This document shows, piece by piece, positions 9,843 to 38,688 of a stretch of DNA of 64,000 nt. Position numbers and translations under genes: made by a program. The DNA comes from Streptomyces sp. NBC_01255 (GTDB lineage: Bacteria > Actinomycetota > Actinomycetes > Streptomycetales > Streptomycetaceae), in the NCBI RefSeq assembly GCF_036226445.1, contig NZ_CP108474.1, forward strand, positions 992,001 through 1,056,000. The letters are read 5' to 3'. The notes under the pieces were generated by a model that did no database searches, was not told where the DNA came from, and was given only the letters and a program-made list of their open reading frames with translations. Numbering within the stretch: position 1 is the first letter of the stretch; each line of letters starts with the position of its first letter.

Positions 9843-10268
9843 TCAGATCTGTGCGGGCACGGCGTGCGGGGCACGGACCGTGTCGCTTCCGGGGACGGGC
9901 GCGGAGGCGTCCTCCCCGAGCTCCACGATGCGGTTGTCCGCGTCGACGTGCACGACGCGCGGCGTGAACGCGCGCGCCTCGGCGTCGTCGACCTGTGCGT
10001 AACTGATGAGGATCACGAGGTCGCCGGGGTGCACGAGGTGCGCGGCGGCACCGTTGATCCCGATGACGCCGGAGCCGCGTTCGCCCTCGATGACGTAGGT
10101 CTCCAGCCGGGCCCCGTTGTCGATGTCGACGATGTGCACGAGCTCGCCGGGCAGCAGATCCGCCGCCTCCATCAGCTCGGCGTCGACGGTGACCGACCCG
10201 ACGTAGTGCAGGTCGGCCTGCGTCACGGTCGCGCGGTGGATCTTGGACTTGAACAGAGTGCGCAGCAC
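9843..10268 (-). CDS. panD: Aspartate 1-decarboxylase
   Basis: Pyruvoyl enzyme that decarboxylates L-aspartate to beta-alanine for pantothenate and coenzyme A synthesis. The 141-aa proenzyme has the self-cleavage site Gly24-Ser25 in HYVGSVTVD, Lys9 near the active site, and [18 protein letters not shown] and [10 protein letters not shown] of the core barrel. The start is a GTG with GAGGAG six bases upstream. The first codons and everything upstream of them are repeated at 37.9 kb next to an integrase. After integration, the panD start region therefore appears to be supplied by the inserted element. Confidence 0.95.
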
Positions 10269-10916
10269 TTTGGACTCCTCGAAGACGGCTCCCTGCCTGC
10301 TTTCTGCAGGTCAAGGGCGGTCTCGAGCTTACACCGACACCCCCGTCCGATGTTTGTGAGGAACATCGCCCCGGTCAGGCGATACGGGTCCCCACCTGGG
10401 CTTTCACGCCGTCACCGACACCTGTTCAAGCAATTCTCCGGGAACGCCGGCGACTCATGCTGACCCGATGCTGACTTACCTGATGAGCCATCAAACATGC
10501 GGGAGACCACTCTGCACACACGGACGACGTGCGTGCACGCACCGACCTGTCGGGCACCGACATCGCTCTGGCTCATGGAACACGGTCCCTTGGCCGTCGG
10601 CCGGTCGACGCTCGACCGCTCCGAAAACGGTCCAACCGATGGCGAACCGCCCTCGCACACCGTGAAGGAGAGCTGTTGAAGCCGACCAAGGAAGTGCTCC
10701 AGGACCTGACCCAGCCGTCGAACGTCTCCGTCCACTCCGACGAGACGCTCGTCGGGAAGGTGGAGGCCGCCATCGGGGCGGACGACAGGAAGCGGAAGGA
10801 GAACGAGGACGAGCCGCTCCGCCGGAAGCCCGACCTCGCCCCGATCCCGCAGACGGAGCTGCCCCGGCAGTTCGAAGTGACCCTCTGGGACGTCCTCCAC
10901 ACCCTCGCCCGGGCCA
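10239..10916. repeat. Left copy of long panD-upstream repeat (putative attL side)
   Basis: Matches 37867-38688 in direct orientation. The best part, 10252-10326, is identical over 75 bp to 37880-37954 and covers the first six panD codons, its Shine-Dalgarno and upstream DNA. Beyond it the two copies are recognisably homologous but diverged, with an extra stretch of about 150 bp in the right copy near 38240-38390. Similarity stops abruptly at 10916. The 75-bp identity is a plausible recombination core for the integrase at 36574. Confidence 0.7.
10676..10916 (+). pseudogene. Truncated 5' copy of the gene at 38448
   Basis: The first 80 codons of the unknown gene at 38448 recur here from the same TTG start with the same GGAGAG upstream: KPTKEVLQDLTQPSN... 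RRKPDLAPIPQTELPRQF... LHTLARA. The two copies differ by scattered, mostly conservative changes, so this is not a fresh duplication. Homology ends in the middle of the protein at 10916. The next bases encode, on the other strand, a fragment (AATTAWVNLWDGRTRQGF, about 10920-11050) that also lacks a proper gene context. That makes 10916 a recombination joint. Confidence 0.7.
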
Positions 10917-11098
10917 AGGAACCCCTGCCGGGTGCGGCCGTCCCAGAGGTTGACCCACGCGGTGGTGGCGGCGAGGTGGGCGTCGCGAAGGTCGTCCCCG
11001 GAGGCCCTCCGGTCCGTTTCCGGTCCGAGCCCGGCCTGAGCGAAGGGTGGCACCCCGACCGGCCCGGTCCCGCTCCTGTCGTCGCGGAGGTCGGTCGG

Positions 11099-11812
11099 TC
11101 AGCTCGTCGCCCGTACCGCGTCCCTGATCAGGTCGGCGACCCGTGTGGGCTCGGACAGGACGACGGCGTGGGAGGCGTCCGGAAGTTCGACGACGACGGC
11201 GCCGGCCCGTGCGGCGCCGAAGTGCTGAACCTCGGGGCTGATCGTGCGGTCCGCCCCGGCCACCAGGGCCCAGGACGGTTTGGTCCGCCACGCCGCCGCG
11301 GACGCGGTCTCGGTGAAGGCGGCCGTGGCGAGCGGGCGTTGGGTCGCTGCCAAGACGCCGGCGACGTCCTCGGGAACGTCCGCCGCGAAGACGGAGGGAA
11401 AGGCCGCCTCCTCGATGGTGACCTCGACCCCGTTGTCGCCATCGAGGAGCGGGTACGTCCACTCCTTCAGGTTGCCCGTCAGCGGGGACTCGGGGAAGCT
11501 CCCTTGGAGCTGGCCGAGGCTCTCGCCCTCGTGGGGCACGTAGGCGGCCACGTAGACGAGCGCGACGACGTTCTCCGCGGCGCCGGCCACGGTGATCAGC
11601 GCACCGCCGTAGGAGTGGCCGACGAGTACGGCCGGGCCGTCGACCTGCGCGAGGACGGAGGTGAGGTAGGCGGCGTCCGACGTCAGCCCTCGCAGCGGGT
11701 TCGACGGAGCGATCACCGGGATACCACTGCTCCGCAGTTCCGAGATGACGCCTATCCAGCCTGTCGCGTCGGCGAAGGCACCGTGCACGAGGACGACGGT
11801 GGGGTGGGTCAT
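11099..11812 (-). CDS. Alpha/beta hydrolase, LVHGAFADA type (paralogue 1)
   Basis: A 237-aa cytoplasmic hydrolase beginning MTHPTVVLVHGAFADATGW (oxyanion region). The nucleophile is Ser67 in VLVGHSYGG and the catalytic His is in LPDASHAVVL near the C-terminus. It belongs to the same family as the genes at 27071 and 31878 and the broken copies near 57 kb. These enzymes act on small esters or lactone-type substrates, but the natural substrate is not known. ATG at 11812 follows GAGAAGAGAAC. First gene inside the left edge of the putative island. Confidence 0.8.
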   Translation of the reverse strand: MTHPTVVLVHGAFADATGWIGVISELRSSGIPVIAPSNPLRGLTSDAAYLTSVLAQVDGPAVLVGHSYGGALITVAGAAENVVALVYVAAYVPHEGESLGQLQGSFPESPLTGNLKEWTYPLLDGDNGVEVTIEEAAFPSVFAADVPEDVAGVLAATQRPLATAAFTETASAAAWRTKPSWALVAGADRTISPEVQHFGAARAGAVVVELPDASHAVVLSEPTRVADLIRDAVRATS

Positions 11813-11991
11813 GCGAGTTCTCTTCTCGGTGTCGGGCCGCGTGTGGGGCGTCGTCACGACGGTCAGGTCGCGGCCCGGAGTTCGGCAAGAGGTCCATGCA
11901 GCCGTTACTCACGGTAAAGCCCTGGAAGCGGCTCCTCTTGTACGTGCGCGCAGCCGCGCTGTCATGACAGCGGGCACGCGTCGCGGCGCCT

Positions 11992-12891
11992 TCACTCGTC
12001 CTGGGCGCCGGCGGTCGTCGTCGCGAAGGCCGAGGTCGCCAGCGCCTGCCATTCGCTGGGGCTCATGCCGTAGGCCCCGCGGAACGTGCGGCTGAAGTGC
12101 GAGGGGCTGCTGAAGCCCCAGCGATGTGCCACCGCGGCCATGGTGATCCTCCGGTTGGAGCGGCCCAGCTCGAGCCGGCAGAACTCGAGCCTGCGCTGCC
12201 GCACCCATTGGCTCACCGTGCTGCCGTCGTTCTGGAAGAGCTTCTGCAGGTACCGGACGGAGATGTGGTGGGCGCGTGCGATCGACTCCGGTGAGAGGTC
12301 CGGGTCCATCAGGTGCTCTTCGATGTAGCCGTGGATACGGGACAGCATCTCGTTGGCGGCCCCGGACGCGTCGTCGGCCTCGGCCGTCGTGTCCGCTTCG
12401 AGGAGCTCCATGACCAGGACGGAGAGTAGGTGTACGGCCGTCCGGGCACGCCGGTCCCCGATCGTGGACCGGCGGAACTCCGCCTTTGCGGCGAGCGCGG
12501 TCAGGAAGTCGGACGCCAGCGCCCCGATCCCCTCCCCGCCGCGTACGGGTACGCCGAGCACCTGGTCCAGTTCCGACTGCGTGACGCCCAGATAGCAGCG
12601 GGGCACCCGGAAGAAGATCATCTGGCAGTTCTCGCCGAACTGCAGCAGGTGCTGTCGGGCCGGGTCGCAGAAGACCAGGTCGTTCGGCTCCAACAGGGTC
12701 TTGGCACGCTCGTGGACGACGGTGACGGGCCCACGGACATGGACGCCGAGATAGACGTGGGTCCGGTCGTTCGTCTCCGGCATCTCGGAAAGCATCTGGA
12801 CCAGCCACCCCGAGCGGGAGGAGGGCGAGGCCGGATCGGGCGCTTGCCGGGGCACCCGTTCGGGCGCACGAGACATCAGTGTGAGGGGCAT
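11992..12891 (-). CDS. AraC-family transcriptional regulator
   Basis: A 299-aa protein. The N-terminal half is an AraC-binding-like sensor domain (VYLGVHVRGPVTVVHER, LLEPNDLVFCDPARQH). The C-terminal third carries the double helix-turn-helix: DPDLSPESIARAHHISVRYL and then ITMAAVAHRWGFSSPSHFSR with GMSPSEWQ. GGAAGG lies six bases before the ATG. It lies just downstream of the alpha/beta hydrolase at 12934, which it may control. The ligand is unknown. Confidence 0.85.
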   Translation of the reverse strand: MPLTLMSRAPERVPRQAPDPASPSSRSGWLVQMLSEMPETNDRTHVYLGVHVRGPVTVVHERAKTLLEPNDLVFCDPARQHLLQFGENCQMIFFRVPRCYLGVTQSELDQVLGVPVRGGEGIGALASDFLTALAAKAEFRRSTIGDRRARTAVHLLSVLVMELLEADTTAEADDASGAANEMLSRIHGYIEEHLMDPDLSPESIARAHHISVRYLQKLFQNDGSTVSQWVRQRRLEFCRLELGRSNRRITMAAVAHRWGFSSPSHFSRTFRGAYGMSPSEWQALATSAFATTTAGAQDE

Positions 12892-12933
12892 GGGATTCCT
12901 TCCTGGCCGTAAGTGCGGGCGGCGGGGGCAGGT

Positions 12934-13785
12934 TCACACCCCGTTCGCCGGCTCCTCGGCCAGGAACTTCTCCACCACGGCATTGAAGGCCGGCGGGTTC
13001 TCCAGGAAGGGGAAGTGCGAGCTCGCCACGTCGGAGGCGAAGACGTGCAGGCGTGCGCCGGGAATCCGCTCGGCGACGAAGCGCTGCGAGTCGGGGTGCA
13101 CATGGCTTCCCTCACAGCCGATCACCAAGGTCGGCACATCGATCCGGGGAAGCACGTCGCGCCAGTCCTGCGCGCAGTGGTCGAACAGCAGCGATACGCC
13201 CGCATAGGCGGGTGTCGACCGGATCTCCTCGCCGACGAAGGCCAGCACCTCGGGGTTGGGCTCGCCGGAGAACATGCCGCGCACGAAGTCGGCGCGGACC
13301 GTGTCGCCCTCCGGCCCCGCGAGGGCCGCACCCAGGTACAACAGCCCCGACACATCGAAGATGGCACCGGAGTCCCGCTGTTCCCGCTCGGTCATCCAGG
13401 GCACGGCGGCGACCGCCGCGGGCTGGTCGACGGCGACGAAGCGCCGGATCCGTCCGGTCCCGCACTGGTCGATGAAGCTCCACCACACCGAGACACCCAT
13501 GGACCAGCCCAGTGCGTCGAAGCGGTCGAGACCGAGATGGTCGACGAGTTCGAGCACGTCGCGGGAGAGCCGGGCGATGCGGTAGCCGTGCCGCGGCTTG
13601 CCGGACTTCCCATGGCCGCGGAGGTCGACGGTGACGACGCGACGGCCGGGCGCCAACCCCTCGATCTGGTGGCGGAACATCGCCTGCGTCTGCCCCCAGC
13701 CGTGCAGCATCACCAGCGGGACGCCCTCGCCGCCGGTGTCCTGGTACGCGAACCGTGCGCCGTCCGTCGTGATCAGTTCCTTCAT
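12934..13785 (-). CDS. Alpha/beta hydrolase (haloperoxidase/esterase-like)
   Basis: 283 aa. It has a VMLHGWGQTQAMF oxyanion region, VDLRGHGKSGKP, nucleophile Ser95 in LGWSMGVSV, a likely acid in VIGCEGSHVHPDS, and a late His in SSHFPFLENPPAF. This is the cofactor-free haloperoxidase/ester-hydrolase pattern and a different branch from the LVHGAFADA paralogues. ATG at 13785 with GGGGAGAGG upstream. Followed by the AraC gene after 42 bp, so the two may form one transcript. Confidence 0.8.
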   Translation of the reverse strand: MKELITTDGARFAYQDTGGEGVPLVMLHGWGQTQAMFRHQIEGLAPGRRVVTVDLRGHGKSGKPRHGYRIARLSRDVLELVDHLGLDRFDALGWSMGVSVWWSFIDQCGTGRIRRFVAVDQPAAVAAVPWMTEREQRDSGAIFDVSGLLYLGAALAGPEGDTVRADFVRGMFSGEPNPEVLAFVGEEIRSTPAYAGVSLLFDHCAQDWRDVLPRIDVPTLVIGCEGSHVHPDSQRFVAERIPGARLHVFASDVASSHFPFLENPPAFNAVVEKFLAEEPANGV

Positions 13786-13924
13786 GACCTCTCCCCTGGT
13801 CAGAGGGCGGTACATCGTTCCCGCCCGTCCCGAACATCATCGAATGGGGCCCGCCGCCCGCACCACCGCGAGCTGTAGGAATCGGGCCGTGGATCCTCCT
13901 CGCTTTGTCGAAGCGAGTCCGTGG

Positions 13925-15172
13925 TCAGACGGCCCCGTCGCCGCCCGGCGCGAGGAGTTCCTCGATCCTGAGGCCGAGGTGGAGAGCGAGCCGGTCGGCG
14001 CCGTCGTCGAGGTCGAGTCCGGTGATCTCCTGGATCTGGCGCAGGCGGTAGTAGAGCGAGGTGCGGTGGATTCCCAGCGTGTCCGCGGTCCGGGGAATCG
14101 ATCCCGCGTGTTCGAGGAAGCAACGCAGGGTGTCCCGCAGGCGGTCGCCGCCATGAGTGTCGCTCAGGGTACGGAGCGGCTTCGGGACCAAAGACGCGTT
14201 CAGGGCGTGCTCGGGAAGCTGGAGCAGCACCGCGAGCTCCCCGAGCAGCTCCCAGTCACCGGCGCTCTTCAGGGTGGGCAGTCGGCGTGCCGCGCGTGCC
14301 GCCACGAGCGCCTGCTCGTACGACGTCCATGCGTCGTCCAGACTGGAGTGCCGGCCGCCGGCGCCGATCACGGGGTCCGCCGACGGGCCCAGGAAGGTGC
14401 GGAGTTCGTCCAGGATGCGAGCGGACTGTGCGGTGACCTCGTCCTGGCCGGGTGGGCGGTCGCGCAGCTGGAGCAGTGTCGCCCGCTCCTTGCCGATCGC
14501 GACGAGGCCCTGGGCGGAGCGCGTCTGCCGGAACCCCTCCAGCGCCCCCCACAGGACAGCCTCGGACTGCCGCACGAACTCCGTCGCGCAGCTCAGCTGG
14601 ACGACGGTGACAAGGACGTGCTCCGCCGCTCCGAGCAATCCGAGTTCCCGGCCTCGCCGGCGTGCGGTGGTACGGGCGGCGACGTCGGTACCGACGAGTG
14701 CGAGGACCAGGTCCCGCTCGTCGACCCTCCGGGTGTCGGCGGCGATGTACTCTCCGTACATCTGGGCGGCCATGGCGTCCGCGGCCCGGGCGATGGCATG
14801 TGTCTCCCGCTCTCCTAGCGCCTTCTCGGGCACGACCACCATGAGCAGCCCGAGGAGGTGCCCGCGCTCGCGCAGCGGCACGACGTAACGGGGCAGCAGT
14901 CCGAGATCGTCACGGCCGTCGATGAATCCGGCTCGGGACCACTGGGTCACGCCCTGGGCGAGGATGTAGCGGATGGTCGCGTTGTCGGCGCGGCCCTGCA
15001 ACAGGGTGCCGATGCGTACCGGGTCCTCGTCGCCGAAATGGCGGCTCGTGCAGACCAAGCGGACCAGCGGGTCGTCGACGGCGACGGACCGGCCGAGCCG
15101 CTCCGCGAGCTCGTCGACAAGCGCCTGGAGCTCGGGGCTGCCAGGGCGGGCTCGCTGGAGCCTTACGGTCAT
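13925..15172 (-). CDS. PucR/CdaR-type transcriptional regulator
   Basis: 415 aa. It has an N-terminal sensor region with GRSVAVDDPLVRLVCTSRHF and a central GGDEF-like degenerate region (VIGAGGRHSSLDDAWTSYEQAL). The C-terminal PucR helix-turn-helix reads CFLEHAGSIPRTADTLGIHR, then TSLYYRLRQIQEITGLDL. PucR proteins control catabolic genes in response to metabolites. ATG at 15172 with GAGAGGAAC upstream is preferred over a longer frame that starts at 15325. It sits between a hydrolase and a LAL regulator, part of an unusually regulator-dense stretch. Confidence 0.85.
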   Translation of the reverse strand: MTVRLQRARPGSPELQALVDELAERLGRSVAVDDPLVRLVCTSRHFGDEDPVRIGTLLQGRADNATIRYILAQGVTQWSRAGFIDGRDDLGLLPRYVVPLRERGHLLGLLMVVVPEKALGERETHAIARAADAMAAQMYGEYIAADTRRVDERDLVLALVGTDVAARTTARRRGRELGLLGAAEHVLVTVVQLSCATEFVRQSEAVLWGALEGFRQTRSAQGLVAIGKERATLLQLRDRPPGQDEVTAQSARILDELRTFLGPSADPVIGAGGRHSSLDDAWTSYEQALVAARAARRLPTLKSAGDWELLGELAVLLQLPEHALNASLVPKPLRTLSDTHGGDRLRDTLRCFLEHAGSIPRTADTLGIHRTSLYYRLRQIQEITGLDLDDGADRLALHLGLRIEELLAPGGDGAV

Positions 15173-15308
15173 GCGCTGTTCCTCTCTCGACCAACTGTCC
15201 CCGCGGACTTCTCCATTCCGCGGCTCTTGATCATTCTGAGGAAGCGACGACGTCGGCACATCACACGAATCGTCCATTGCCATGAGGCCCACATGGGATA
15301 CGAAGCGA

Positions 15309-18182
15309 CTACTCTCCGCTGTCACGGTCCTTCGCCAGCCGGGTCAGCTCCCCGCGCGAGGTGACGTCCAGCTTGGTGAAGGCCCGGCGCAGGTGCGAAC
15401 TCACCGTGTGCGGCGAGAGGGAGAGGTGCTCGGCCACCTGCTGGTTGGTCAGCCCTTGGGCCACGAGCCGTACCACCCGTATCTCCGCGGCCGTCAGCTC
15501 GGGCCATGCCCCGGAGAGTCCGGCCGTCGAGGGCCGGCGGCGGACACCAGCGGCCCGCAGGCGCCGGCGGACGCGTGCGACGTCCCGCTCGGCGCCCCCT
15601 CGCGCGTAGAGCGCGAGGGCCGTGTCGAAGTACGGCACCGCTTCGGACTTGCGGGTGGCCGCAAGCTTGCGTCCGGCGTCCTCCAGTGCCGACGCCCGGG
15701 CCAACGGCCGAGGGCAGTCCTCGTACAGCCGGACGGCGCGTACGAGAGGGGCGAGGTCGTTGTCGAGGAGCCCCCGGGCATGCGCGGCGGTAGCGGCCAG
15801 GAACGTGAGGTCGGGGTTGAGCACGGCCAGTCGCTCGGCCAGGGCCACTGCCTGCGCGGCCCGTTCGTGTGCGCCTGCACGCAGCGCCAGGCGGACGAGG
15901 ACCGGGGCGTCGGCGGGGTCGACCAAGCCGGCGTAGGCCGGCCGGTCCGCGGCGGGCGACGTCATCACCTCGTCGAGTTCGGCCATGGCACGGTCGGGAC
16001 GGCCTTCGAAGTCGGCCATCAGCGCCAGCATCCAGGAGCCGAAGTGCCGGACGACGGGTGCGCCGTCGCTCCGCATGCGCCTCGCCTCCGCCGCATACGC
16101 TCGTGCGGTCTGCTGGTCGTTGGTGTGGAGGGCGACGCGCATCATCACGTACCGGAGCGTGACGTCGGCGAGGTTGCCCGGGCCGAGGTCGTCGGTCGTC
16201 GCAGACGCGGCTTCGGCGTCGGCCCGGGCGTCCGTCAGCCGTCCGGCCTCCAGAAGGATGCGGGAGCGGGTCATGAGCCACATACGAGTGGCGGCCGTCC
16301 GGCCCTGCTCCCTGGTGATCCGGATGCCGTCCTCCGCGGCCGCGAGCGCCTCCGCGGAGCGTCCGGTGGTGTTCGACAGGAGAGCGTGCCACAAGGCCTC
16401 CGGAACCCACAGCGAGGTGCTGACGCCCAGGGCGTCGGCCAACGCGACGGACCGCTCGGCCTGCCGGAACGCCTCGGTCAAGTCCATGCGGTGGAAACTC
16501 GCGGCCGAGCGGACCGTCGTCAGCGTGGCCTCGGCGGAGCGGTCCCCCGCTGCCGCTGCGGTCTCCCACGCCTCCGCGGCGACCTGCTCGGCCGCCGAGT
16601 GCTCGCCCGACATCGACAGGCCGACAGCGAGCATGGCGAGCAGTCGCCCCCTCACGTCCACGGGGATCCCGGGCAGTGCCGACCCGGCGCGGGCCTGGCG
16701 GACCGCCTCGGAGAAGTCGAACGGTACGGCGAGGCGTGCCAGGGCAAGGCGTATGCGCGCCTCGTCCTCTGGTCCGAGACCGCCGGTCGCCAGGGCGGAG
16801 ACTCCCAGCTCACGCGCCTGGGCGGCCCGGCCCGTCTGCCAGAGCAGCGGGATCGTCTCGGCGATGACCCGCGGCCGCTCCGGAGCGTCCGCCGTGGTGA
16901 GTTCCAGGGCCTTGAGACTGCGTTCCGCGGCGGGTCCGGGAGCGGTGGCCGCGAGTTCCGCCGCGGCGGTGCGCAGCCGGTCGGCCTCCGCCGCGTCTCC
17001 CGGCCCCGCTCTCCCGGCCTCCGCCGCATCTGCCGGCGCTCTCCCGGCCGACGGCCCTGGACGCTCGACGGGGGAGGCCGCAATCCCCGGCGGCAGCTCG
17101 GCGGCTTGACCACGCAGGGCCTGAAGCAGGGGCAGGGGGAGGCCGGCTTCCACCGCCTCGCGGATCAGGTCGTGGCGGAAAGCGAGGTGATCGCCGCTTT
17201 CGATGAGCAGATCGGCGTCGAGGGATTCCCGTACCGCTGTGATGAGCGCCGCCGAGGACCTGCCGAGCAGTTCGGCCAGCAGCGCGACGGTGACCGGGCC
17301 GCCCAAGGCGGCCGCCGTCTGCACCAGCGCCCGTGCCTCGTCGGACAGCTGGTCGAGGCGGCGCACGACAGAGGGGAGTTCGTGTGGGGCGGGGGGTCCG
17401 GCCGACAGCCTGGCCGTGCCGTTCTCGGTCGTCACTGCCTCACGAAGCGAGCCGAGCAGCTCGACCAGCAGTTGCGGGACTCCTTCGGCGCGGCGGGCGA
17501 CGCGGAGGACGTCCGGGTCGGGAGCGGCGCCGAGGGCCTCCTCGGTGATCTGTGTGGTGGCCTGGTCGTCCAGCGCTCCCAGCGCCAGCTCTTGTGCGCC
17601 TGCCTGCCGGATCCGGTCCAGGGTCGTGCGCACTCCTGACGGCACGCTGCCGCCGCGCACGGCGACCAGCCACAGGATGGCGTGCGACGAGAGTCCGGCC
17701 GCGAGGGTGTTGAAGGTGAGAAGGGTCAGGTCGTCGCACCACTGGAGGTCGTCGAGGACGACGAGCAGGGGGCCGTTTCGAGCCGTCTCCCGCAGGCGGT
17801 CCCCCAGCTCCTGGAGCAGCCAGAAGCGCTGGCCGGGTGTCGTGGCGAGGTCCCTGAGGCGGACGGCGCCCGACAGCGGTTCCTCGCCGGAGAGCAGGCC
17901 GTCGAGGAGCGGGCCGAGCGGCACGAACTGTTCGTCGGGGTCCGCCGCTCCCTCGAACACCCTCGTCCCGCGCCGCCTCGCGGCAGCCGCGGCCTCCGAG
18001 AGGATCCTGGACCTGCCGATGCCGACGGGGCCTTCGACGCGGATGATCCCGCCTTCGCCCCGGTCGAGCGCGTCGAGCCGCACCTCGATGAACGCCAGTT
18101 CGGCGTCCCTGCCGCGGAGGGGCGTCCGTACACCCTCGCGTTCCTCGGGCACGGTCCTTGTCGTCACTCGGTTCACGCTCAT
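15309..18182 (-). CDS. Large LAL-type LuxR regulator with altered Walker A
   Basis: 957 aa. The N-terminal AAA-like NTPase has LRGRDAELAF, and a P-loop reading EGPVGIGRSR, in which the usual lysine is Arg57. Walker B is LLVVLDDLQWCDD. The middle is TPR-like helical repeats (AEQVAAEAWETAAAAGD, GRSAEALAAAEDGIR). The C-terminal LuxR helix-turn-helix reads LTAAEIRVVRLVAQGLTNQQ then SPHTVSSHLRRAFTKL. LAL proteins are ATP-dependent activators of catabolic or antibiotic clusters. The K-to-R change suggests weak or absent ATP hydrolysis. It lies upstream of the PucR gene on the same strand. Confidence 0.9.
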   Translation of the reverse strand: MSVNRVTTRTVPEEREGVRTPLRGRDAELAFIEVRLDALDRGEGGIIRVEGPVGIGRSRILSEAAAAARRRGTRVFEGAADPDEQFVPLGPLLDGLLSGEEPLSGAVRLRDLATTPGQRFWLLQELGDRLRETARNGPLLVVLDDLQWCDDLTLLTFNTLAAGLSSHAILWLVAVRGGSVPSGVRTTLDRIRQAGAQELALGALDDQATTQITEEALGAAPDPDVLRVARRAEGVPQLLVELLGSLREAVTTENGTARLSAGPPAPHELPSVVRRLDQLSDEARALVQTAAALGGPVTVALLAELLGRSSAALITAVRESLDADLLIESGDHLAFRHDLIREAVEAGLPLPLLQALRGQAAELPPGIAASPVERPGPSAGRAPADAAEAGRAGPGDAAEADRLRTAAAELAATAPGPAAERSLKALELTTADAPERPRVIAETIPLLWQTGRAAQARELGVSALATGGLGPEDEARIRLALARLAVPFDFSEAVRQARAGSALPGIPVDVRGRLLAMLAVGLSMSGEHSAAEQVAAEAWETAAAAGDRSAEATLTTVRSAASFHRMDLTEAFRQAERSVALADALGVSTSLWVPEALWHALLSNTTGRSAEALAAAEDGIRITREQGRTAATRMWLMTRSRILLEAGRLTDARADAEAASATTDDLGPGNLADVTLRYVMMRVALHTNDQQTARAYAAEARRMRSDGAPVVRHFGSWMLALMADFEGRPDRAMAELDEVMTSPAADRPAYAGLVDPADAPVLVRLALRAGAHERAAQAVALAERLAVLNPDLTFLAATAAHARGLLDNDLAPLVRAVRLYEDCPRPLARASALEDAGRKLAATRKSEAVPYFDTALALYARGGAERDVARVRRRLRAAGVRRRPSTAGLSGAWPELTAAEIRVVRLVAQGLTNQQVAEHLSLSPHTVSSHLRRAFTKLDVTSRGELTRLAKDRDSGE

Positions 18183-18242
18183 ACGGCGGAACAGTATGAA
18201 CCATATGAACCACCCCGCCGCCGCCCGGCCCGGGGGCCCGTC

Positions 18243-19939: not shown

Positions 19940-19993
19940 GGGGTGTCTGCTCTCCTGAGCTCGTCCGGTTCCCGCGCCGGGGAACCGGGGCCG

Positions 19994-20022
19994 GGGTGAC
20001 GCCGGGGGCTCCGGCGTCACCC
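19994..20022. terminator. Hairpin between hydrolase and LLM gene
   Basis: GGGTGACGCCGG (19994-20005) pairs perfectly with CCGGCGTCACCC (20011-20022) around a 5-base loop, 20 bp after the stop of the hydrolase at 20043. It could end that transcript or attenuate entry into the LLM/FMN-reductase pair. Confidence 0.6.
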
Positions 20023-20042
20023 AGCGGGTCAACGGTGCGGCG

Positions 20043-20939
<897 letters not shown>

Positions 20940-21012
20940 TCACGTTAGGACCGGTCCCGCGCCTCCTGTTGACGCGCCGCGCACCACACCTTGCACGCGG
21001 GCGCAGAGTCAC

Positions 21013-27796: not shown

Positions 27797-27879
27797 GGGG
27801 GAACTCCTCGGTGCGTGACGGGGAATGGGGCTGGGGACAGGGATGGGGCTGGGGATGCGGGAGATGGATGCGCGGTGCT

Positions 27880-28194: not shown

Positions 28195-28239
28195 GGGTGC
28201 TCCTGTGCGGTCGTGGTGTGACGGGGTGGGTGGGCGCGG

Positions 28240-28977: not shown

Positions 28978-28993
28978 CGGGTGGATCTCTCTT

Positions 28994-30880: not shown

Positions 30881-31830
30881 GCGAGGGCCTTGCGCAGGGT
30901 GTCAGTGGCGAGACCGATGGCGAGCTCCGCGGCCTGCGTCTCGCGCAGTGCGTTCAGCATCACGAAGTCGTGGATGACGCCCTGGACGCGCAGGGCGGTG
31001 ACGGGGACGCCGGCTGCGCGGAGCTTCGCCGCGTACGCCTCGCCCTCGTCGCGCAGGACGTCCGCCTCGGCGGTGATGACCAGGGCCGGCGGCAGGCCGG
31101 TGAGCTGCTCGGTGGTGGCGCGCAGCGGCGAGGCGGTGATCTGGGCGCGCTCGGCCTCGGCGGTCGTGTACTGGTCCCAGAACCACTTCATGGCGTCGCG
31201 GCGCAGGAAGTAGCCCTCGCCGAACTGGTGGTACGAGTCGGTGTCGAAGCTCGCGTCCGTGACCGGGTAGAAGAGGACCTGCTGGACGAGCACGACGTCG
31301 CCGCGCTGCTTGGCCATGAGGGTGAGGGCGGCGCTCATGTTGCCACCGACCGAGTCGCCCGCGACGGCGATCCGCGTGCCGTCGAGGTCCTTGTGGTGCC
31401 CCTCGCGGGCGACCCACTGGGCGACGCTGTAGTTCTGCTCGATCGCGACGGGGTAGCGCGCCTCGGGCGAGAGGTCGTACTCGGGGAACACCACGGCCGC
31501 CCGGGTGCCGACGGCGAGTTCGCGGACGAGCCGGTCATGGGTGTGGGCGTTGCCGAAGACCCAGCCCGCGCCGTGGATGTAGAGGATGACAGGAAGCGGG
31601 CCGGTGGCGCCGCGGGGGCGGACGATCCGGGCGCGGACGTCGCCGGTCGGGCCGCCGTGGACGGTGATCCACTCCTCGTCGACCTCGGGCAGGGGGACGC
31701 CCTCACCGCTCTGGACACCGTCCACGGCCTTACGGCCTTCGGCGACGGGGATCTGGTAGAGGTACGGCGGCTGGGCGGTGGCGTCGGCGAAGGCCTGGGC
31801 GGCGGGTTCGAGGATCGGTCGGTTCTTCAT
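30877..31830 (-). CDS. HSL-family alpha/beta esterase
   Basis: 317 aa, hormone-sensitive-lipase type: an oxyanion motif ILYIHGAGWVFGNAHTHD (HGGG variant HGAG), VVFPEYDLSPEARYP, nucleophile Ser in VAGDSVGGNMSAAL, acid in ITAEADVLRDEGEAY, His in QGVIHDFVML. Acts on short-chain esters. ATG at 31830 with a leader rich in GGAG. Translationally coupled to the amidohydrolase, which suggests stepwise cleavage of one compound carrying both ester and amide bonds. Confidence 0.88.
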   Translation of the reverse strand: MKNRPILEPAAQAFADATAQPPYLYQIPVAEGRKAVDGVQSGEGVPLPEVDEEWITVHGGPTGDVRARIVRPRGATGPLPVILYIHGAGWVFGNAHTHDRLVRELAVGTRAAVVFPEYDLSPEARYPVAIEQNYSVAQWVAREGHHKDLDGTRIAVAGDSVGGNMSAALTLMAKQRGDVVLVQQVLFYPVTDASFDTDSYHQFGEGYFLRRDAMKWFWDQYTTAEAERAQITASPLRATTEQLTGLPPALVITAEADVLRDEGEAYAAKLRAAGVPVTALRVQGVIHDFVMLNALRETQAAELAIGLATDTLRKALA

Positions 31831-31877
31831 CAGGGGTTCTCCTTCTGGGGATGTACGGGAGGGCGCAGGTCGGGGGC

Positions 31878-32735
31878 TCAGCGGGTCGCCCGTACGGCGT
31901 CGAGGATCACGTCGGTGACCACGGCCGGACGGGAGACGGCCACGGCGTGCGACGCGTCCACTTCGGTGATGTGCGAGCCGGCACGCCGGGCCATCCACCG
32001 TTCGGCGGCCGGCGGGATGTTCTTGTCGGCGGTGGCGATCAGCGCCCAGGACGGGATCGTCTTCCAGGCCGCTTCCCCGGCCGTCTCCTCCAGCGCGGCG
32101 GTGGCGACCGGGCGCTGGGTCGCGGCCATGACGGCCGCGTCGGCGGTGGGGACATCGGCGGCGAACTGCCGGTGGAACTTGGCCCGTTCGATGACGAGTT
32201 CGGTGCCGCTGCCACCGCCGGGCAGCGGGTACGACCGCGGGTTCACGGTGTCGCCGAGGGTGGAGCCGGGGAACTTGGCGGCGAGCTCGGCCGCGCTCTC
32301 GCCCTTGTCCGGGGTGAACGCGGCGATGTAGACGAGGGCCTTCACACGGATGTCGCCCAGCGCGGCGCCACTGATGACGGCGCCGCCGTAGGAGTGGCCG
32401 ACCAGGACGACGGGTCCCTCGACGGCGGCCAGCACGCTGCGCAGGTAGGCGGTGTCCGCGGCGAGACCGCGCAGCGGGTTGGCGGGGGCCAGGACGGGGT
32501 AGCCGGCGCGCTGCAGCCGCCTGATCGTGCCGCTCCAACTGGAGGCGTCGGCGAACGCCCCGTGGACTAGGACGATCGTGGGCTTGGGTCCGTGCCGGTC
32601 GGCGCCGGCGGCGGCCGGGCCACTCGCGGGTGCGGCGGGTGTGGCAGGTGTGGCAGGTGCGGCGGGTGCGGCGCCCATGAGGGCGGCCAGCGTGGCCGGC
32701 AGGGCGAGGGCGAGGGTGCGCCTCTTGGGGTGCAT
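31878..32735 (-). CDS. Exported alpha/beta hydrolase, LVHGAFADA type (paralogue 3)
   Basis: 285 aa. Unlike its paralogues it has an N-terminal export signal (KRRTLALALPATLAALMGAA) followed by an Ala/Pro/Thr-rich spacer. The hydrolase domain is KPTIVLVHGAFADASSW, RGLAADTAYLRSVL, nucleophile Ser115 in LVGHSYGGAV, and His in EVDASHAVAVSR. Probably secreted or tethered outside the membrane. First gene of the leftward run ending at 27071. Confidence 0.85.
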   Translation of the reverse strand: MHPKRRTLALALPATLAALMGAAPAAPATPATPAAPASGPAAAGADRHGPKPTIVLVHGAFADASSWSGTIRRLQRAGYPVLAPANPLRGLAADTAYLRSVLAAVEGPVVLVGHSYGGAVISGAALGDIRVKALVYIAAFTPDKGESAAELAAKFPGSTLGDTVNPRSYPLPGGGSGTELVIERAKFHRQFAADVPTADAAVMAATQRPVATAALEETAGEAAWKTIPSWALIATADKNIPPAAERWMARRAGSHITEVDASHAVAVSRPAVVTDVILDAVRATR

Positions 32736-32838
32736 GAGGGTTTCCTTGTCGGGTGGTGAGGCGTTCGGGTGCGCTCGGGCGGGCGGGAGGGTGCGCCGAT
32801 GGGGCCGAGCGGGTGCGGCGGTCGGGCGGGGCCTCGCC

Positions 32839-34266
32839 TCAGAGGCCGTACGCCTCCAGGAGCCGGAGCCAGACCTCGCTCACCGTCGGGAAGGCGGGCA
32901 CGGCGTGCCACAGGCGCTCCAGGGGGACCTCGCCCACGATGGCCACGGTGGCGGTGTGGATGAGTTCGGTCGCCAGGGGGCCGGTGAGCGTGCAGCCGAC
33001 GACGACTCCCCGGGTCTCGTCGACGACGAGCTTGGCGTGGCCGCGGTAGTCGTCCGCGTGGAGCGCGGCGCCGGCGACGTCGTCGATGCGGTACTCCACC
33101 GTGCGTACCGCGAGACCCGCTTCGCGTGCCGCGCGTTCCGTGAGACCGACGCTCGCGACCTCGGGACGGGTGAAGACGGCCTGGGGGACGGCAATGTGGT
33201 CGGCCTCCGCGCTCCACGGCTGTCGGCCGCCGGTGACGGCCGGGCGCCCTGCTGCCCGCTCGGCGATCGCCGCCGTGCAGGCGCGGGCCTGGTACTTGGC
33301 CATGTGGGTCAGCGGCGCACGGTGATTCACGTCGCCGACGGCGTAGAGCCATGCGCCCTCGACCGCGGTGACCCGACAGGTGTCGTCGACCGGGAGCCAG
33401 TCGCCTGCCGGCAGTCCGACGGAGTCCAGGCCGAGGTCCGCGGTGCGCGGGCGACGGCCGACCGCGGCGAGGACCTCGTCGCAGACGAGGGCGGTGCCGT
33501 CGTCCGTGTTCACGGTCACCGTGCGGGTGTCGGCGTCACGGGCGACTCGGACGGCCGACACCCCGAAGCGGATCGTGACGCCCAGATCGCTCAGCCCCCG
33601 GGTGACCTCTTCGCCGGCACACGGCTCCCAGCCGGTCAGCAGGGCCTGGTCGCGGACCAGCAGAGTGACGGAGGAGCCGAGCGAGCGCCACGCGGTGGCC
33701 ATCTCGCAGGCCACCGCTCCCCCGCCGATGACGACGAGCCGCTCGGGCACCGCGTCGGCCGTGGTGGCCTGCCGGTTGGTCCACACACCGATCCGGTCGA
33801 GCCCTTCGACCGGCGGAAGGGCGGGCTCCGTGCCGGTGCAGACCACGACCGCGAGCCGGGCCCGAAGGGTGTGGACCGTGCCGTCGGCCCCGGTCACCTC
33901 CACCCGGCGCTCACCGGCGAGCCGTCCGTGGCCCCGTACGAGCGCGATGCCCGCACCGTCGAGCCAGTCGGCCTGGCCGGTGTCGTCACCGCGCCCGGTG
34001 AAACGGTCACGCCGGGCCAGGACGCGCGCCGGGTCGAGTGCCGCCGTGACCGACTGCCGGGCCCCGTCGACCGACCGGGCCGCCGCTCGGGCGGCGCCGG
34101 GTCGCAGCAGGGCCTTGCTCGGCACGCAGGCACGGTAGGAGCACTCGCCGCCGACCGCCTCGGCCTCGACGACGACGGCGGTCAGTCCCGACCGGACGGT
34201 CCGGTCGGCGACGACCTCGCCGGCCGGACCGCCGCCGACCACGACGACGTCGTACGTGTCCTCCAT
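32839..34266 (-). CDS. Pyridine nucleotide-disulfide oxidoreductase
   Basis: 475 aa, lipoamide dehydrogenase/mercuric reductase class. FAD site DVVVVGGGPAGEVVADR; redox-active cysteines in GGECSYRACVPSKALL; NAD(P)H site LVVIGGGAVACEMA; second FAD motif WLYAVGDVNHRAPLTH; and a C-terminal HAVPAFPTVSEVW in the place of the usual HPTxSE. It should transfer electrons from NAD(P)H to a disulfide or an electrophile. ATG at 34266 shares a base with the Dps-like stop (TGATG), so translation is coupled. Part of a redox-protection operon. Confidence 0.88.
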   Translation of the reverse strand: MEDTYDVVVVGGGPAGEVVADRTVRSGLTAVVVEAEAVGGECSYRACVPSKALLRPGAARAAARSVDGARQSVTAALDPARVLARRDRFTGRGDDTGQADWLDGAGIALVRGHGRLAGERRVEVTGADGTVHTLRARLAVVVCTGTEPALPPVEGLDRIGVWTNRQATTADAVPERLVVIGGGAVACEMATAWRSLGSSVTLLVRDQALLTGWEPCAGEEVTRGLSDLGVTIRFGVSAVRVARDADTRTVTVNTDDGTALVCDEVLAAVGRRPRTADLGLDSVGLPAGDWLPVDDTCRVTAVEGAWLYAVGDVNHRAPLTHMAKYQARACTAAIAERAAGRPAVTGGRQPWSAEADHIAVPQAVFTRPEVASVGLTERAAREAGLAVRTVEYRIDDVAGAALHADDYRGHAKLVVDETRGVVVGCTLTGPLATELIHTATVAIVGEVPLERLWHAVPAFPTVSEVWLRLLEAYGL

Positions 34267-34844
34267 CAGCTGCGCACCAGGGGGGTGTCGACGAGGTGCT
34301 CGGCCAGGAACCACACCTGTGCCTCGCCGGTGCGGATGACGTCGGAGACGAGCAGGTCGGCGCTGCCCTCGTCGCCCTCCCCGGAGAGCCGGGCGGCGGC
34401 GTCCCGGGCGTCGATCAGGATCCGTTCGTGCGCGTCGAGGAGCCGCGACAGCATGACGGGGACCGGCTCGACGCCGTCCGGCGGCCGGGGTATCGCAGTC
34501 AGCTCCGCGACGTGGCGCGGGTCTCCGACCGCGACGCCGCCGAGGCTCTGGATCCGCTCGGCCAGCGCGTCAACGATGGCCAGTTGGGCTTCCGCGTGCT
34601 TGTCCAGCATCAGGTGGAGCGAGTAGAAGGTAGCCCCGCGCATGAGCCAGTGGTGCTTCTTGTAGAGGGAGTACAGGATCTGCGTGTCGGCGAGTACGCG
34701 GTTCAGCCGCTGGCACGCGTACATGCGGGTGTCGTGGCCGAGACCGATCGGCAGCTGCTTGAGCGTGCCGAACGCCTGGGTCTCGGCGCCCTTCTGATGC
34801 AGCAGCGGCTGGCCACCGCCGTGCAGGGTCGTGAGGGTGTCCAT
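34266..34844 (-). CDS. Dps-like ferritin-family protein
   Basis: 192 aa. A four-helix ferritin-like domain with YACQRLNRVLADTQILYSLY, KKHHWLMRGATFYSLHLMLD (ferroxidase-site histidines and acids) and DKHAEAQLAIVDALAERIQ fits DNA-binding proteins from starved cells. It should store iron and remove peroxide. ATG at 34844. Coupled to the disulfide reductase downstream and 92 bp from the DoxX gene upstream. Confidence 0.85.
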   Translation of the reverse strand: MDTLTTLHGGGQPLLHQKGAETQAFGTLKQLPIGLGHDTRMYACQRLNRVLADTQILYSLYKKHHWLMRGATFYSLHLMLDKHAEAQLAIVDALAERIQSLGGVAVGDPRHVAELTAIPRPPDGVEPVPVMLSRLLDAHERILIDARDAAARLSGEGDEGSADLLVSDVIRTGEAQVWFLAEHLVDTPLVRS

Positions 34845-34936
34845 CGGGTGCTCCTGTTCGGGAGAGAGGGTGGGAAGGGCCCGGCCGCCCGGTCGGGGGT
34901 ACGCGGGCGGCCGGACCCGGTCTGTGCGGCTCGCGC

Positions 34937-35443
34937 TCAGCGGTCGGCGATCGCCGGGGCGGGGGGCCGGTGCAGAACGAGCCGGGTGAGGAGTCCGCTG
35001 CCGAGACCCGCCACGAGCGCGAGGGCGGCCCACCACAGCGGGTACGGCGTGAGGCCGAGGGCCGCGTCGAGGGACCAGGCGCCGGGTCCGGTGGCGGCGA
35101 GGGCGGCGGCGGTGCCGACGAGGACGAGCGGGTACTCGTATCCGTCGTTCTGCACCCAGAGCCCGTGGCGCCATTTCACGGTGAGCGCGACCGTCATGAC
35201 CCCGATGACGCCGGTCGCGGCGAGCGGAGTCAGGAGGCCGGCGGCGAGCAGCAGGCCAGATCCGATCTGACCACCGCCCGCCGCCAGGGCGGTGAGGGCA
35301 CCGCCGCGGAAACCGTCGGCGCGGAACTCCTCGGTACCACCCTCGAGCCCCTTGCCGCCCAGGTGTGAGCTGATCTTCTGCACACCGTGGCCGGCGACGA
35401 GCAGTCCCACCAGCAGACGCAGGATCAGAATGCCGGTGTCCAC
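34937..35443 (-). CDS. DoxX-family membrane protein
   Basis: 168 aa with four membrane helices: GILILRLLVGLLVAGHGVQK, GGGQIGSGLLLAAGLLTPLA, IGVMTVALTVKWRHG and ALALVAGLGSGLLTRL. DoxX proteins work with oxidoreductases in sulfur and redox homeostasis; in mycobacteria a DoxX partner joins a membrane oxidoreductase complex. The gap to the isochorismatase-like gene upstream is 5 bp, so they share a transcript. Confidence 0.85.
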   Translation of the reverse strand: MDTGILILRLLVGLLVAGHGVQKISSHLGGKGLEGGTEEFRADGFRGGALTALAAGGGQIGSGLLLAAGLLTPLAATGVIGVMTVALTVKWRHGLWVQNDGYEYPLVLVGTAAALAATGPGAWSLDAALGLTPYPLWWAALALVAGLGSGLLTRLVLHRPPAPAIADR

Positions 35444-35448
35444 AGGGG

Positions 35449-36111
35449 TCAGCCGGCGGCGTGCGCGCCGATGACGGCCTGCGCGTACACGACGCCCAAG
35501 CCGTAAGCGCCCGCGTGGGCCTTGACGATCTCCATGACCGCGCCGTACGACTCCTGGCGCGCCCAGTCGCGCTGCAGTTCCAGGAGCACCTGCACCCAGG
35601 TCACCGGGACGGCGCCGGCGGCGATCATCCGCTGCAGCGCGTGCTCGTGGGCGGCCGGGCTGACGCCGCCGGAGGCGTCGGAGACCACGTACACCTCGTA
35701 CCCCTGCTCAAGGGCGGAGAGCGCGGGCAGCACCAGGCAGACCTCGGTCCACAGGCCCGACAGGATGATCTTCTTGCGCCCGGTCGCCTTGACCGCCGCC
35801 ACGAGCGCCTCGTCCTCCCAGGCGTTCATGGACGTACGGTCGATGACCTCGTTCTTGGGAAACACCTCGGCGAGCTGCGGCAGCAGAGGCCCGGAGAACG
35901 ACTCGGCGGCGACCGTGGTCAGGACGGCCGGCACATCGAATGCCTGAGCCGCCTTGGCAAGACCCACGGTGCTGTTGATGATCGCGGCGCGATCGCCGCT
36001 GCCGGTGCCGAAGAACATCTGCGGCTGGTGGTCCACGAAGAGCATGACCGAGTTGTCGGGCGTGAGCAGATCCTTGCTCGGGGCGGCCTGCACCTTGTTG
36101 ATGTCGAACAT
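35449..36111 (-). CDS. Isochorismatase-family hydrolase
   Basis: 220 aa. Cysteine-hydrolase fold: DNSVMLFVDHQPQMFFG carries the catalytic Asp, KKIILSGLWTEVCLVL carries the cis-peptide and nucleophile Cys, and VYVVSDASGGVSPAAHEHAL lies near the end. Members act on isochorismate-like ethers, nicotinamide or amides; this subgroup (YcaC-like) has no assigned substrate. ATG at 36111 with GAGAGGA upstream. First gene of the isochorismatase / DoxX / Dps-like / disulfide reductase operon. Confidence 0.88.
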   Translation of the reverse strand: MFDINKVQAAPSKDLLTPDNSVMLFVDHQPQMFFGTGSGDRAAIINSTVGLAKAAQAFDVPAVLTTVAAESFSGPLLPQLAEVFPKNEVIDRTSMNAWEDEALVAAVKATGRKKIILSGLWTEVCLVLPALSALEQGYEVYVVSDASGGVSPAAHEHALQRMIAAGAVPVTWVQVLLELQRDWARQESYGAVMEIVKAHAGAYGLGVVYAQAVIGAHAAG

Positions 36112-36573
36112 GAGGGGTCCTCTCGAAGCAATCGGTAACGTGCCCGCCGCGTCCGCGGCTCGGCACTTCTTCAAGCTACGAGCGCCCCGACCGACCGGGT
36201 TGACCTCCTGCGCCCAGGGGTTGGCACGACAGCGCACAACCGGTCAAGGACCAGAGCCGCGCGGTGTCACGGGCGCGAACGCACAAGGTCGCGACGCCGG
36301 CACACTCGCCCTGGGACTCCTCCGAAACGGTGCGCAACCACAGCCCAACCCAACGAAGGGTCGCCTCACCAGCGGAAACACCGTCAGGAACGGGCCGCGG
36401 CTGGGGAGAATCGACCGCGTAGGACGGCGTCACGGTGAAAGCCCCGGAAACGAGCAAAGTCGCAGGCCAGCCCGACTCGTACAGCAATCTGCGCAGGTCA
36501 GCTCGTTGCGGGCGACGGCTTCAAGAAGATCTCCTCGCCACCTCAACAGGTCATGTGTCGCTCTAACCGCCCT
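36112..36573. other. Intergenic stretch beside the integrase, no gene seen
   Basis: About 460 bp between the isochorismatase start and the integrase stop. Open frames here lack ribosome sites or family features. The promoter of the redox operon should lie in the first 100 bp. No excisionase was found. Confidence 0.5.
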
Positions 36574-37722
36574 TCAGGCTGCTTCCCAAAGGCCGGCGTC
36601 CAGGATCCGTGCGGCCTTGGTGATGCTGCCCGGCATCAGGTGCCGGTAGGTCCGGTACGTCTCCTCGATGGACTTGTGGCCCATCCATTCCGCCACGTCG
36701 GTGATCGGGAAGCCGCTGCCGAGGGCGTTCGAGGCGAAGTAGTGCCGGAAGCCGTACATCCCGACACCTTCTTCCGGCGGGAGGTCTTCGAAGAGCCTCT
36801 TCACCCGGCGTCGCTCCATGCCTTCGGTGAAATAGCCGCCCGGGCCGCGCAGGAGGTAGCCCTCCTTCGTGGTGCCGTGCTTGGCCGCGTAGTGCTCGAT
36901 CGCCTCCCGGACCGATCGTGGCAGAGGAACCTCCCGGAACTCCCCCGTCTTGCGGTGCTTCAGCTTCGCCGGCTTGAGCGTGTTGGAGTGGATCTGCTCG
37001 CGCACCCGGTACACGTCCTGGGCTACGACGTTGTGGACGTTCACCGCCCGCGCCTCACCATTCCGCAGGCCACATCCCGCCATCATGACGATTTCCAGCG
37101 CAAGGTCCTCGTCGGCAACCTTCAGCGCCTTTTTCACATAGGCGAGGGACGGGATGGCGACCGTTGCCCGCACGTACTCCGGTTCCTGGACACCCTTCAC
37201 CGGGTCGTCCGCCATGGCCCCCTTGGCATAGGTGTCTCGCAGGATGGTCTTGAGGGCGCGGAATACGTTCACCTGGTTTCCTCGGCCGACCCCGTCGCTC
37301 TCCATCTCGTCCAGGAAGCGTTCGACCACGATCGGTGTGACCGAGTCCAGCTTTCGTGATCCGAGGCGGGGGACGATGTGCACGCTGATCGAGCTGTCGA
37401 CGTGCTCCCCCGTGGAGTAATCCGTCATCTTGCGCTGCCGAGGCCGCCACTGCTTCGCGTATTCCTCGACCGTCTGCTGCCCCAGTTCCCGGCGGGTCGC
37501 CGCCACCGACGGCGCTGTCGTCTTCTTCTCCGCGTACACCTGCGTGAGGCGTTCGATCGCCTCGTCCTGCGTACCGAAACCGGACTCCTCGCGCTGCCTG
37601 CCGAGCGCGTCCCGGAAACGGATCGAGTACGGGTGAGGGCAGCGGGTGGGCTTGGCACAGCCGCAGTCCTTGAAGAAGGACCCCATGCCACGGGCGAGCT
37701 GTCGGGCCATGTCACGCACCAT
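36574..37722 (-). CDS. Tyrosine recombinase (integrase)
   Basis: 382 aa of the actinobacterial ICE/phage integrase type. A Cys-bearing N-terminus (KDCGCAKPTRCPHPY) is followed by a SAM-like core-binding domain (WRPRQRKMTDYSTGEHVD...) and a catalytic domain. Catalytic residues are Arg220 in GCGLRNGEAR, Lys258 in HRKTG, Arg326 in MYGFRHYFAS, His349 in WMGHKSI and Tyr359 in YRTYRHLMP. The first His of the box II HxxR motif is Tyr323 here. It sits at the right edge of the putative island, about 140 bp from the repeat that matches the panD start. Confidence 0.93.
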   Translation of the reverse strand: MVRDMARQLARGMGSFFKDCGCAKPTRCPHPYSIRFRDALGRQREESGFGTQDEAIERLTQVYAEKKTTAPSVAATRRELGQQTVEEYAKQWRPRQRKMTDYSTGEHVDSSISVHIVPRLGSRKLDSVTPIVVERFLDEMESDGVGRGNQVNVFRALKTILRDTYAKGAMADDPVKGVQEPEYVRATVAIPSLAYVKKALKVADEDLALEIVMMAGCGLRNGEARAVNVHNVVAQDVYRVREQIHSNTLKPAKLKHRKTGEFREVPLPRSVREAIEHYAAKHGTTKEGYLLRGPGGYFTEGMERRRVKRLFEDLPPEEGVGMYGFRHYFASNALGSGFPITDVAEWMGHKSIEETYRTYRHLMPGSITKAARILDAGLWEAA

Positions 37723-37866
37723 CCGTTCCAGCCCAAGAACTTGCTCAGGCGCCGCACTGTAGGTCGCAGGTCAGCAAGCGGGTACACGTCTGGGACGCAT
37801 GCTGACCGTTTGCTGACCTGAGGGGGGCACATAATGCCCCTGACCTGTGGCGACGCCAAATAGTCA

Positions 37867-38688
37867 GATCTTAGACTTAAACAGAGTGCGCAGCACTTTG
37901 GACTCCTCGAAGACGGCTCCCTGCCTGCTTTCTGCAGGTCAAGGGCGGTCTCGACTCTACACCGACACCTCCGACCGATGTTTGTGAGGAACATCGCTCC
38001 GGTCAGACGAGACGGCTCCCTACCTGGGCTTTCGCCCCGTCACCGACGCCTGTACAGGCGATCCTCCGGGAGCGCCCGGCGACTCATGCTGACCTACCTG
38101 ATGAGCCATCAACCATGCGGGAGCCCCCTCTATACACACGAGGGACGTGCGTCCACGCACCACCCACCTGTCGGGCACCGACATCACTCTGGATTCATGG
38201 AACACGGCCCCTTTGGCCATCGGCCGGTCGACGCTTGACTGCTCCGCAAGCCAGCTCGCTGCTTGCCTCCCGCCCGAGGCCCCTCGGCAGCGTGGAACTC
38301 GCGAGCGAGGCGGGGCCAAGGCGTCGACGCCGGCCCGCCCGGACCGAAGCCCAGGTCACGCGCCCCTGCGCACTTGCGTGCGCCGCTCCTCCCTTCCGTA
38401 CGGTCCGGCCGATGGTGAACCACCCGCGCACGCCGTGAGGAGAGCTGTTGAAGCCGACCGAGGAAGTGCTCCAGGAACTGACCCAGCCGTCGAACATCTC
38501 CATCCACTCCGACGACGCACTCGTCGGCAAGGTGAAAGCTGCCATCGCGGCGGACGACAAGAAGCGGAAGGAGAACGATGACGAGCCGCTCCGCCGGAAG
38601 CCCGACCTCGCCCCGATCCCGCAGACGGAGCTGCCCCGGCAGTTCGAGGTGACCCTCTGGGACGTCCTCCACACCCTCGCCCGGGCCA
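37867..38688. repeat. Right copy of the panD-upstream repeat (putative attR side)
   Basis: Direct repeat of 10239-10916. On the minus strand it contains a ten-codon remnant of panD: GTG at 37896, then the codons for LRTLFKSKI and a stop. Two codons are changed synonymously (TTC to TTT, TCC to TCT) relative to the real gene. The copy includes the Shine-Dalgarno and upstream DNA and runs on into the complete gene at 38448. Confidence 0.7.

Follow-up and report, generated by a model that had tools for sequence, protein, structure and literature searches.

The window analysed here, 64,000 nucleotides of Streptomyces sp. NBC_01255 (C1:992001-1056000 of the 8.57-Mb genome; positions below are those of the window), contains panD, the gene for aspartate 1-decarboxylase, and on its 5' side a 27.6-kb block bounded by two copies of the panD 5' end, with a tyrosine integrase gene at the far edge. 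The original prediction, made from the letters of the window, read this block as a genomic island that the edge integrase had inserted site-specifically into the start of panD, and comparison with many genomes supports that reading. The island is very probably the work of a panD-specific integrase family acting on a 17-bp attachment (att) core in panD codons 5-10, with panD rebuilt from the incoming element and its 5' side serving as a tandem docking site. The features central to this interpretation are the following:

9843-10268, minus strand: panD, aspartate 1-decarboxylase, the target gene, with a GTG start at 10268 (Pfam PF02261, E 2.3e-51)
10239-10326: putative attL, comprising panD codons 1-10, ribosome site and leader (88-bp repeat with 37867-37954, two mismatches)
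10239-10255: inferred crossover core GATCTTGGACTTGAACA, panD codons 5-10 (identity of attL and distal att copies in 18 pairs)
36574-37722, minus strand: putative panD-specific tyrosine integrase, 382 amino acids (Pfam PF00589 and PF14659; conserved residues; a family with adjacent att)
37867-37954: putative attR, the second copy of the panD 5' end (88-bp repeat)

The predicted repetition of the panD 5' end at both edges is borne out: a perfect 75-bp direct repeat (10252-10326 = 37880-37954) is enclosed in an 88-bp repeat with 86 of 88 positions identical. Homology continues past the 88 bp rightwards only, at 87% identity (10239-10623 and 37867-38246) and, in a second stretch, at 92% (10627-10916 and 38400-38688), this weaker, one-sided homology totalling 0.6-0.7 kb. 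Such an extent is more than a crossover core needs, and would suit an origin of the repeat by homologous recombination or by tandem duplication of the region upstream of panD, the integrase being a bystander.

The position of the exchange was examined in a per-position identity profile of 18 pairs of panD-side and distal att copies from 16 genomes, which leaves out G098 (partial att), a weak fourth copy in G124, and W3, G108b and G163 (stretch without a panD copy). Labelling of panD 5' regions as class I or class II by overall identity was too blunt to serve as a count, and the profile was used in its place. To the left of 10239, identity averages 0.27 across 25 bp, 18 of 25 positions being at or below 0.33; it rises to 0.95 over the 17-bp core (lowest position, 0.72) and is 0.78 over the 18 bp to the right; the sequence GACTT is common to both copies in 18/18 pairs. 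This sharp left limit at 10239, common to independent islands, speaks against duplication, as does the shortness of the unbroken identity across the core, merely 12-21 bp in 15 of the 18 pairs (5, 29 and 35 bp in the other three). The comparison places the probable exchange within the 17-bp core in panD codons 5-10, and therefore an entering element would replace the start codon, ribosome site and leader of panD. To the right of the core the two att copies may differ, which is expected if these parts travel with the element. In the proposed mechanism, the integrase would recombine an attP on the element with the core inside panD, cutting the gene early; panD would be rebuilt at attL with a start codon, ribosome site and leader contributed by the element and would continue to be expressed from there, and the old panD 5' end would be left 27.6 kb away as attR.

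The tyrosine recombinase predicted at the island edge is recognized by both Pfam families listed above and has conserved residues, R220, R326, H327, H349 and Y359 being the same in all 26 sequences aligned. The gene is full-length and apparently intact, its start lies 145 bp from the right att copy, and the enzyme is presumably catalytically active. A search of genome contigs yielded 176 related loci, of which the best 80 were analysed (79 of them titled Streptomyces). Among these, 46 integrases are more than 55% identical to that of the window and 42 of the 46 have the N terminus; a copy of the panD start is found just upstream of 39 of the 42, mostly 135-150 bp from the integrase start, versus none of the 34 integrases at or below 50.5% identity. 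Since integrase identity above 55% predicts an att copy in this way, the duplication of the panD upstream region with a bystander integrase is very improbable, and site-specific integration is retained as the explanation. No match to the integrase was found among PDB sequences, and a pattern scan of IMG/VR gave no close relatives; the matching phage records (154, of which eight are listed at 24-26% identity) and plasmid records (27) are all below 60% identity. The att sequence of panD also occurs on megaplasmids of Streptomyces sp. NBC_01237 (NZ_CP108509.1:1447423) and Streptantibioticus cattleyicolor (NC_016113.1:746140). In two of the named islands (L197 and L228), the integrase-side att copy is split in two, as if by an insertion just right of the att core.

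The original prediction considered the 5' end of panD, rather than a tRNA gene, an unusual target; it is indeed not a tRNA gene, but in Streptomyces it is far from rare. Many genomes have, 5' of panD, a conserved gene for an ABC transporter, which can serve as an anchor. With anchors of at least 86% identity, and with G024, G051, G163 and G195 left out (panD on another contig or not listed), 34 genomes have panD and anchor on one contig, 31 collinear and three rearranged; the position of panD in G009 is provisional. The interval between panD and anchor in the 31 collinear genomes ranges from 1.6 to 178 kb, with a median of 29 kb. A second att copy, counted by eye where about 75 bp or more matched on the contig of panD within 180 kb, is present in at least 17 of 199 genomes of the genus, and in 12 of 22 named genomes searched. 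This is a lower bound, with four candidates scored per genome and with partial matches, genomes whose panD lies on a different contig, and both G009 and G024 (panD unchecked) omitted; among the weak matches left out is one of 36 bp on the opposite strand in G177. In the window and in all 29 other genomes, the second copy is on the strand of panD and on its 5' side. In Streptomyces pilosus, panD is accompanied by two more full att copies, a split one, and three integrases that all point the same way, and Streptomyces gardneri has two att copies beside that of panD itself. Comparison thus marks the 5' side of panD as a recurrent docking site in Streptomyces, with tandem att arrays in some genomes.

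Three further features bear on the recognition of this site:

10287-10318: near-palindromic panD leader element (GGCTCCCTGCCTGC..GCAGGTCAAGGGC), from a relaxed-pattern scan of panD loci
10459-10476, plus strand: two GCTGAC repeats 11 bp apart, candidate integrase arm-type sites on the P' side, with spacing equal to that on the integrase side
37769-37849: integrase-side arm, with GGTCAGCAA, two GCTGACC repeats 11 bp apart and CTGACCTG, conserved in an alignment of 34 integrase-att spacers

The 34 aligned spacers share a conserved order: GGTCAGCAA, two GCTGACC repeats 11 bp apart, CTGACCTGC, and then the core. The motif TGACCTGC, with at most one mismatch, adjoins 21/21 distal att copies versus 0/16 panD copies, compared with 51 of 5000 random 22-mers. 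On the other side of the core, 35 panD-side or att-side sequences, two from the window, were scanned for GCTGAC or its complement GTCAGC at 89-330 bp from the core start. One or more occurrences are found in 25 of these and two or more in 11, the control values for 1980 segments being 17.8% and 2.4%; the positions are often +222/+233 or +147/+158, which is the 11-bp spacing of the integrase arm. The GCTGACC repeats, flanking the core on both sides with the integrase gene on the attR side, may act as arm-type sites. The motif is lacking in G068, which has only 1.6 kb between panD and the anchor, and also in G091, G093, G103 and others with longer intervals, so it does not track interval length. 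Among 33 other genomes examined, GCTGAC lies 5' of panD in 23, and even a fragment of an integrase of more than 55% identity, at E 1e-60, is found just in G143. These data are consistent with islands that pile up in tandem upstream of panD, lose their integrases, and leave att copies and arm sites as fossils.

From 58 genomes with panD, 30 loci were fetched. The highly conserved leader near-palindrome, in the relaxed pattern, is present at 18 of the 22 Streptomyces loci among them and at none of the 8 that belong to two other families of the same order, where panD closely follows another gene, which we take to be panC from the way its end reads. Because it is present in G068, only 1.6 kb from the anchor, the near-palindrome looks native to panD. 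It has no match in Rfam. Half of it (TGACCTGC) recurs in the integrase-side arm.

A third copy of the 88-bp repeat (95% identical) lies 7 Mb away on the minus strand (C1:8060782-8060869), beside a second copy of the integrase gene that is 91% identical and frameshifted near residue 28 (C1:8060782-8062158). A third copy in one genome is what an assembly artefact or a dispersed repeat might leave, but this copy has its own diverged integrase and the named genomes share the layout of the panD island, which makes such an origin negligible in likelihood. The third copy behaves as another att site, and the 75 bp do not appear to be a common dispersed repeat, the outcome that would have told against the original prediction. 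Between the flank beyond the third att copy and the panD-distal region of each of three genomes (G066, G115 and G052), 2.6-3.0 kb is shared, compared with 0.5-0.7 kb for the right flank of the window. Conceivably, an inversion between the chromosome arms moved the right end of an older array to 8.06 Mb; against this, the best match of a flank gene in G013 is 4.9 Mb from panD, and 16 of the other 19 genomes have no match.

The interior of the island and its right flank contain four features that indicate a more complicated history:

10627-10916, plus strand: truncated copy (first 81 amino acids, start at 10676) of the gene at 38448-39656; 92% identical to 38400-38688 and 94% to G038 1450993-1451281
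11070-36240, minus strand: catabolic and regulatory cargo cluster (Pfam and NCBIfam; matches at loci other than panD)
38448-39656, plus strand: fuller copy of the truncated left-edge gene, 402 amino acids, in the right flank (no family match)
39726-40163, minus strand: NUDIX gene (Pfam), in the same adjacency as in G038 (38888-40293 = G038 1451661-1453060 at 93%)

As predicted, the cargo reads mostly one way, all open reading frames taken as cargo genes being on the minus strand. They encode AraC, PucR and LuxR regulators, a luciferase-like monooxygenase, an FMN reductase, parts of an ABC transporter, an amidohydrolase, hydrolases, an oxidoreductase, a Dps/ferritin-like protein and an isochorismatase. 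The predicted absence of conjugation and phage genes also held among the cargo open reading frames scanned (a subset of those possible), on which Pfam named no TraB/FtsK-type transfer or replication family, no other conjugation family and no phage family. A shared backbone gene beside the integrase was sought in up to 5 kb of interior sequence from 40 islands (that of the window and 39 at named loci), but no open reading frame matched more than four other loci at E 1e-5.

The 25-kb cluster is also found away from panD, matched over 96% of its length in G038, 92% in G076, 90% in G015 and 79% in G098, with partial matches (21-48%) in G004, G168, G170, G162 and G052; no att was found near these copies in the stretches read. 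The matches in G038, G015, G076 and G098 begin at 11070-11096 and end at 36237-36264. By the cluster end in G015 (L285:10201-10482) is an integrase fragment corresponding to residues 200-294, 40% identical and opposite in orientation to the integrase of the window. The gene at 38448-39656, which has no match in Pfam, PHROG or NCBIfam, is matched in 41 of 199 genomes searched, its own included. Full and truncated copies of it recur beside panD att copies and at the G038 and G076 loci, where homology begins at about 38350. Two DDE_5 transposase genes lie further right in the window, one at 45136-46705 bounded by 139-bp inverted repeats that are 99% identical and the other at 43583-44701, and the C terminus of the product of 52738-53886 weakly resembles, below threshold, a restriction-endonuclease-fold toxin domain.

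G038 has the unknown gene, the NUDIX gene and the cluster in this order at 1.451-1.481 Mb, 0.48 Mb from its panD, and that locus is 93-94% identical to the left edge of the island (10627-10916) as well as to the right flank (38351-40293). It is possible, though doubtful, that a chromosomal block like that of G038 was trapped between att copies of a site-specific array, the integrase belonging to a neighbouring or older element. The gene order far from panD without att favours such trapping, and so does the fit of the window, whose left edge matches G038 with about 5 kb missing and whose right flank matches the left part of the G038 locus. The left and right copies are 87-92% alike and each is 93-94% identical to G038; differing from each other somewhat more than from G038, they look like separate arrivals. 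On the other side, the adjacent integrase-att module is intact, and the cluster and integrase fill the interval with little else. Trapping of this kind is more a refinement of integration by the panD-specific integrase than an opponent of it. By comparison with these loci the island is composite rather than one simple element, so that of the single 27.6-kb island originally proposed the att-bounded block stands, but its unity does not, the left edge holding a remnant like the right flank and the cargo being known from loci other than panD. The simplest reading is that DNA like that of G038 arrived at panD on two separate occasions and then suffered deletions, so that the present island would consist of one catabolic cluster and the remnant of an earlier event; the order of events would follow from these similarities.

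The original prediction expected relatives with an empty site that joins the panD repeat directly to the sequence right of 37954. In G179, G178 and G052, panD and att do run uninterrupted into sequence like that from 37955 to about 38,590-38,630 (81-85% identity), with about 153 bp that the left copy of the island lacks, but this sequence also resembles the left inner edge of the island. Beyond 39.7 kb, the panD regions of relatives match the window only in short pieces (a transposase at 43345-43987 in G126; 54461-54592 in G124), and hence these relatives are not clean empty sites.

Several observations weigh against site-specific integration by the panD integrase family as set out here. No clean empty site was found among the panD regions of relatives that were compared, and no excisionase or transfer gene was identified. 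The att pair of the window has two mismatches in the core, its unbroken run being just 5 bp; either its attR has drifted or its exchange lay slightly right of the core. Identity right of the core stays fairly high, as the leader is conserved in any case, and a sharp limit is therefore seen only on the left. The third att copy is on the other strand and distant, and att was not found beside 3 of the 42 integrases with an N terminus. Full-length integrase relatives are present in the fetched stretches of just 2 of 17 other island genomes; the islands of the remaining 15 still look like products of the panD integrase family, because the TGACCTGC arm motif adjoins their distal att copies.

Among known systems, the island most resembles those integrated with reconstitution of a gene from its 5' end, as at dusA, with panD as a further target. 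The dusA islands, as the available text of PMC4482086 describes them, have a 5'-end target, a replaced 5' end, the old end at the far edge, diverse cargo, and an integrase as the only universal feature. In both cases the integrase acts on the beginning of a housekeeping gene, to which the island supplies a new 5' end; the panD island likewise has a site-specific integrase at its edge, a duplicated target 5' end, an integrase family tied to one gene (39/42 versus 0/34), and, judging from the position of the core, a new panD 5' end supplied by the element. The two differ in that dusA is targeted in Proteobacteria and panD in Streptomyces, which sets the present enzyme apart from the dusA-associated integrases proper; in that islands at panD form tandem stacks, the word "tandem" being absent from the dusA text (PMC4482086); and in that excision of dusA islands was shown by PCR, whereas the panD island is known here from sequence comparison, and may be mobile. 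PAISt of Streptomyces turgidiscabies, at bacA, has in common with it the Streptomyces host, an edge tyrosine integrase, a duplicated piece of a protein gene, an internal att and tandem integration, but uses the bacA 3' end with an 8-bp palindrome and is a large integrative conjugative element with demonstrated excision, according to the portions of PMC4057263 available. The actinomycete integrative and conjugative elements (AICEs) are likewise integrated actinobacterial elements that accrete and decay at common sites, but according to PMC3218068 and PMC9513070 they have transfer and replication genes and mostly tRNA targets, functions of which none is named in the panD cargo; neither the TraB/FtsK-type transfer and replication genes of an AICE nor the structural genes of a prophage were seen on the cargo open reading frames scanned, nor was a close phage-borne relative of the integrase seen in the phage records and IMG/VR. 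Samy, from the part of PMC12924846 available, has a serine integrase and a radical-SAM gene as its target. No description of panD as an attachment site was found in the accessible portions of the literature searched, although the machine-made island tables behind PMC12884075 may list such islands.

A bolder proposal, which we regard as rather unlikely, is that the elements, and not the host, determine how panD is expressed in much of Streptomyces, because each integration exchanges the leader of the gene along with its ribosome site and start codon; many leaders would then be fossil attachment arms. If this were true, gain and loss of elements would tune the supply of beta-alanine and pantothenate, a form of control of the target gene by islands. 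The more immediate meaning of the panD island is that it defines for Streptomyces an integration hotspot together with the att core, the arm sites and the integrase family that belong to it, which would explain why the sequence upstream of panD differs in nearly all genomes compared. With it, panD would be one more gene of the known kind that is rebuilt from its 5' end, and would offer a candidate attB site for Streptomyces genetics.

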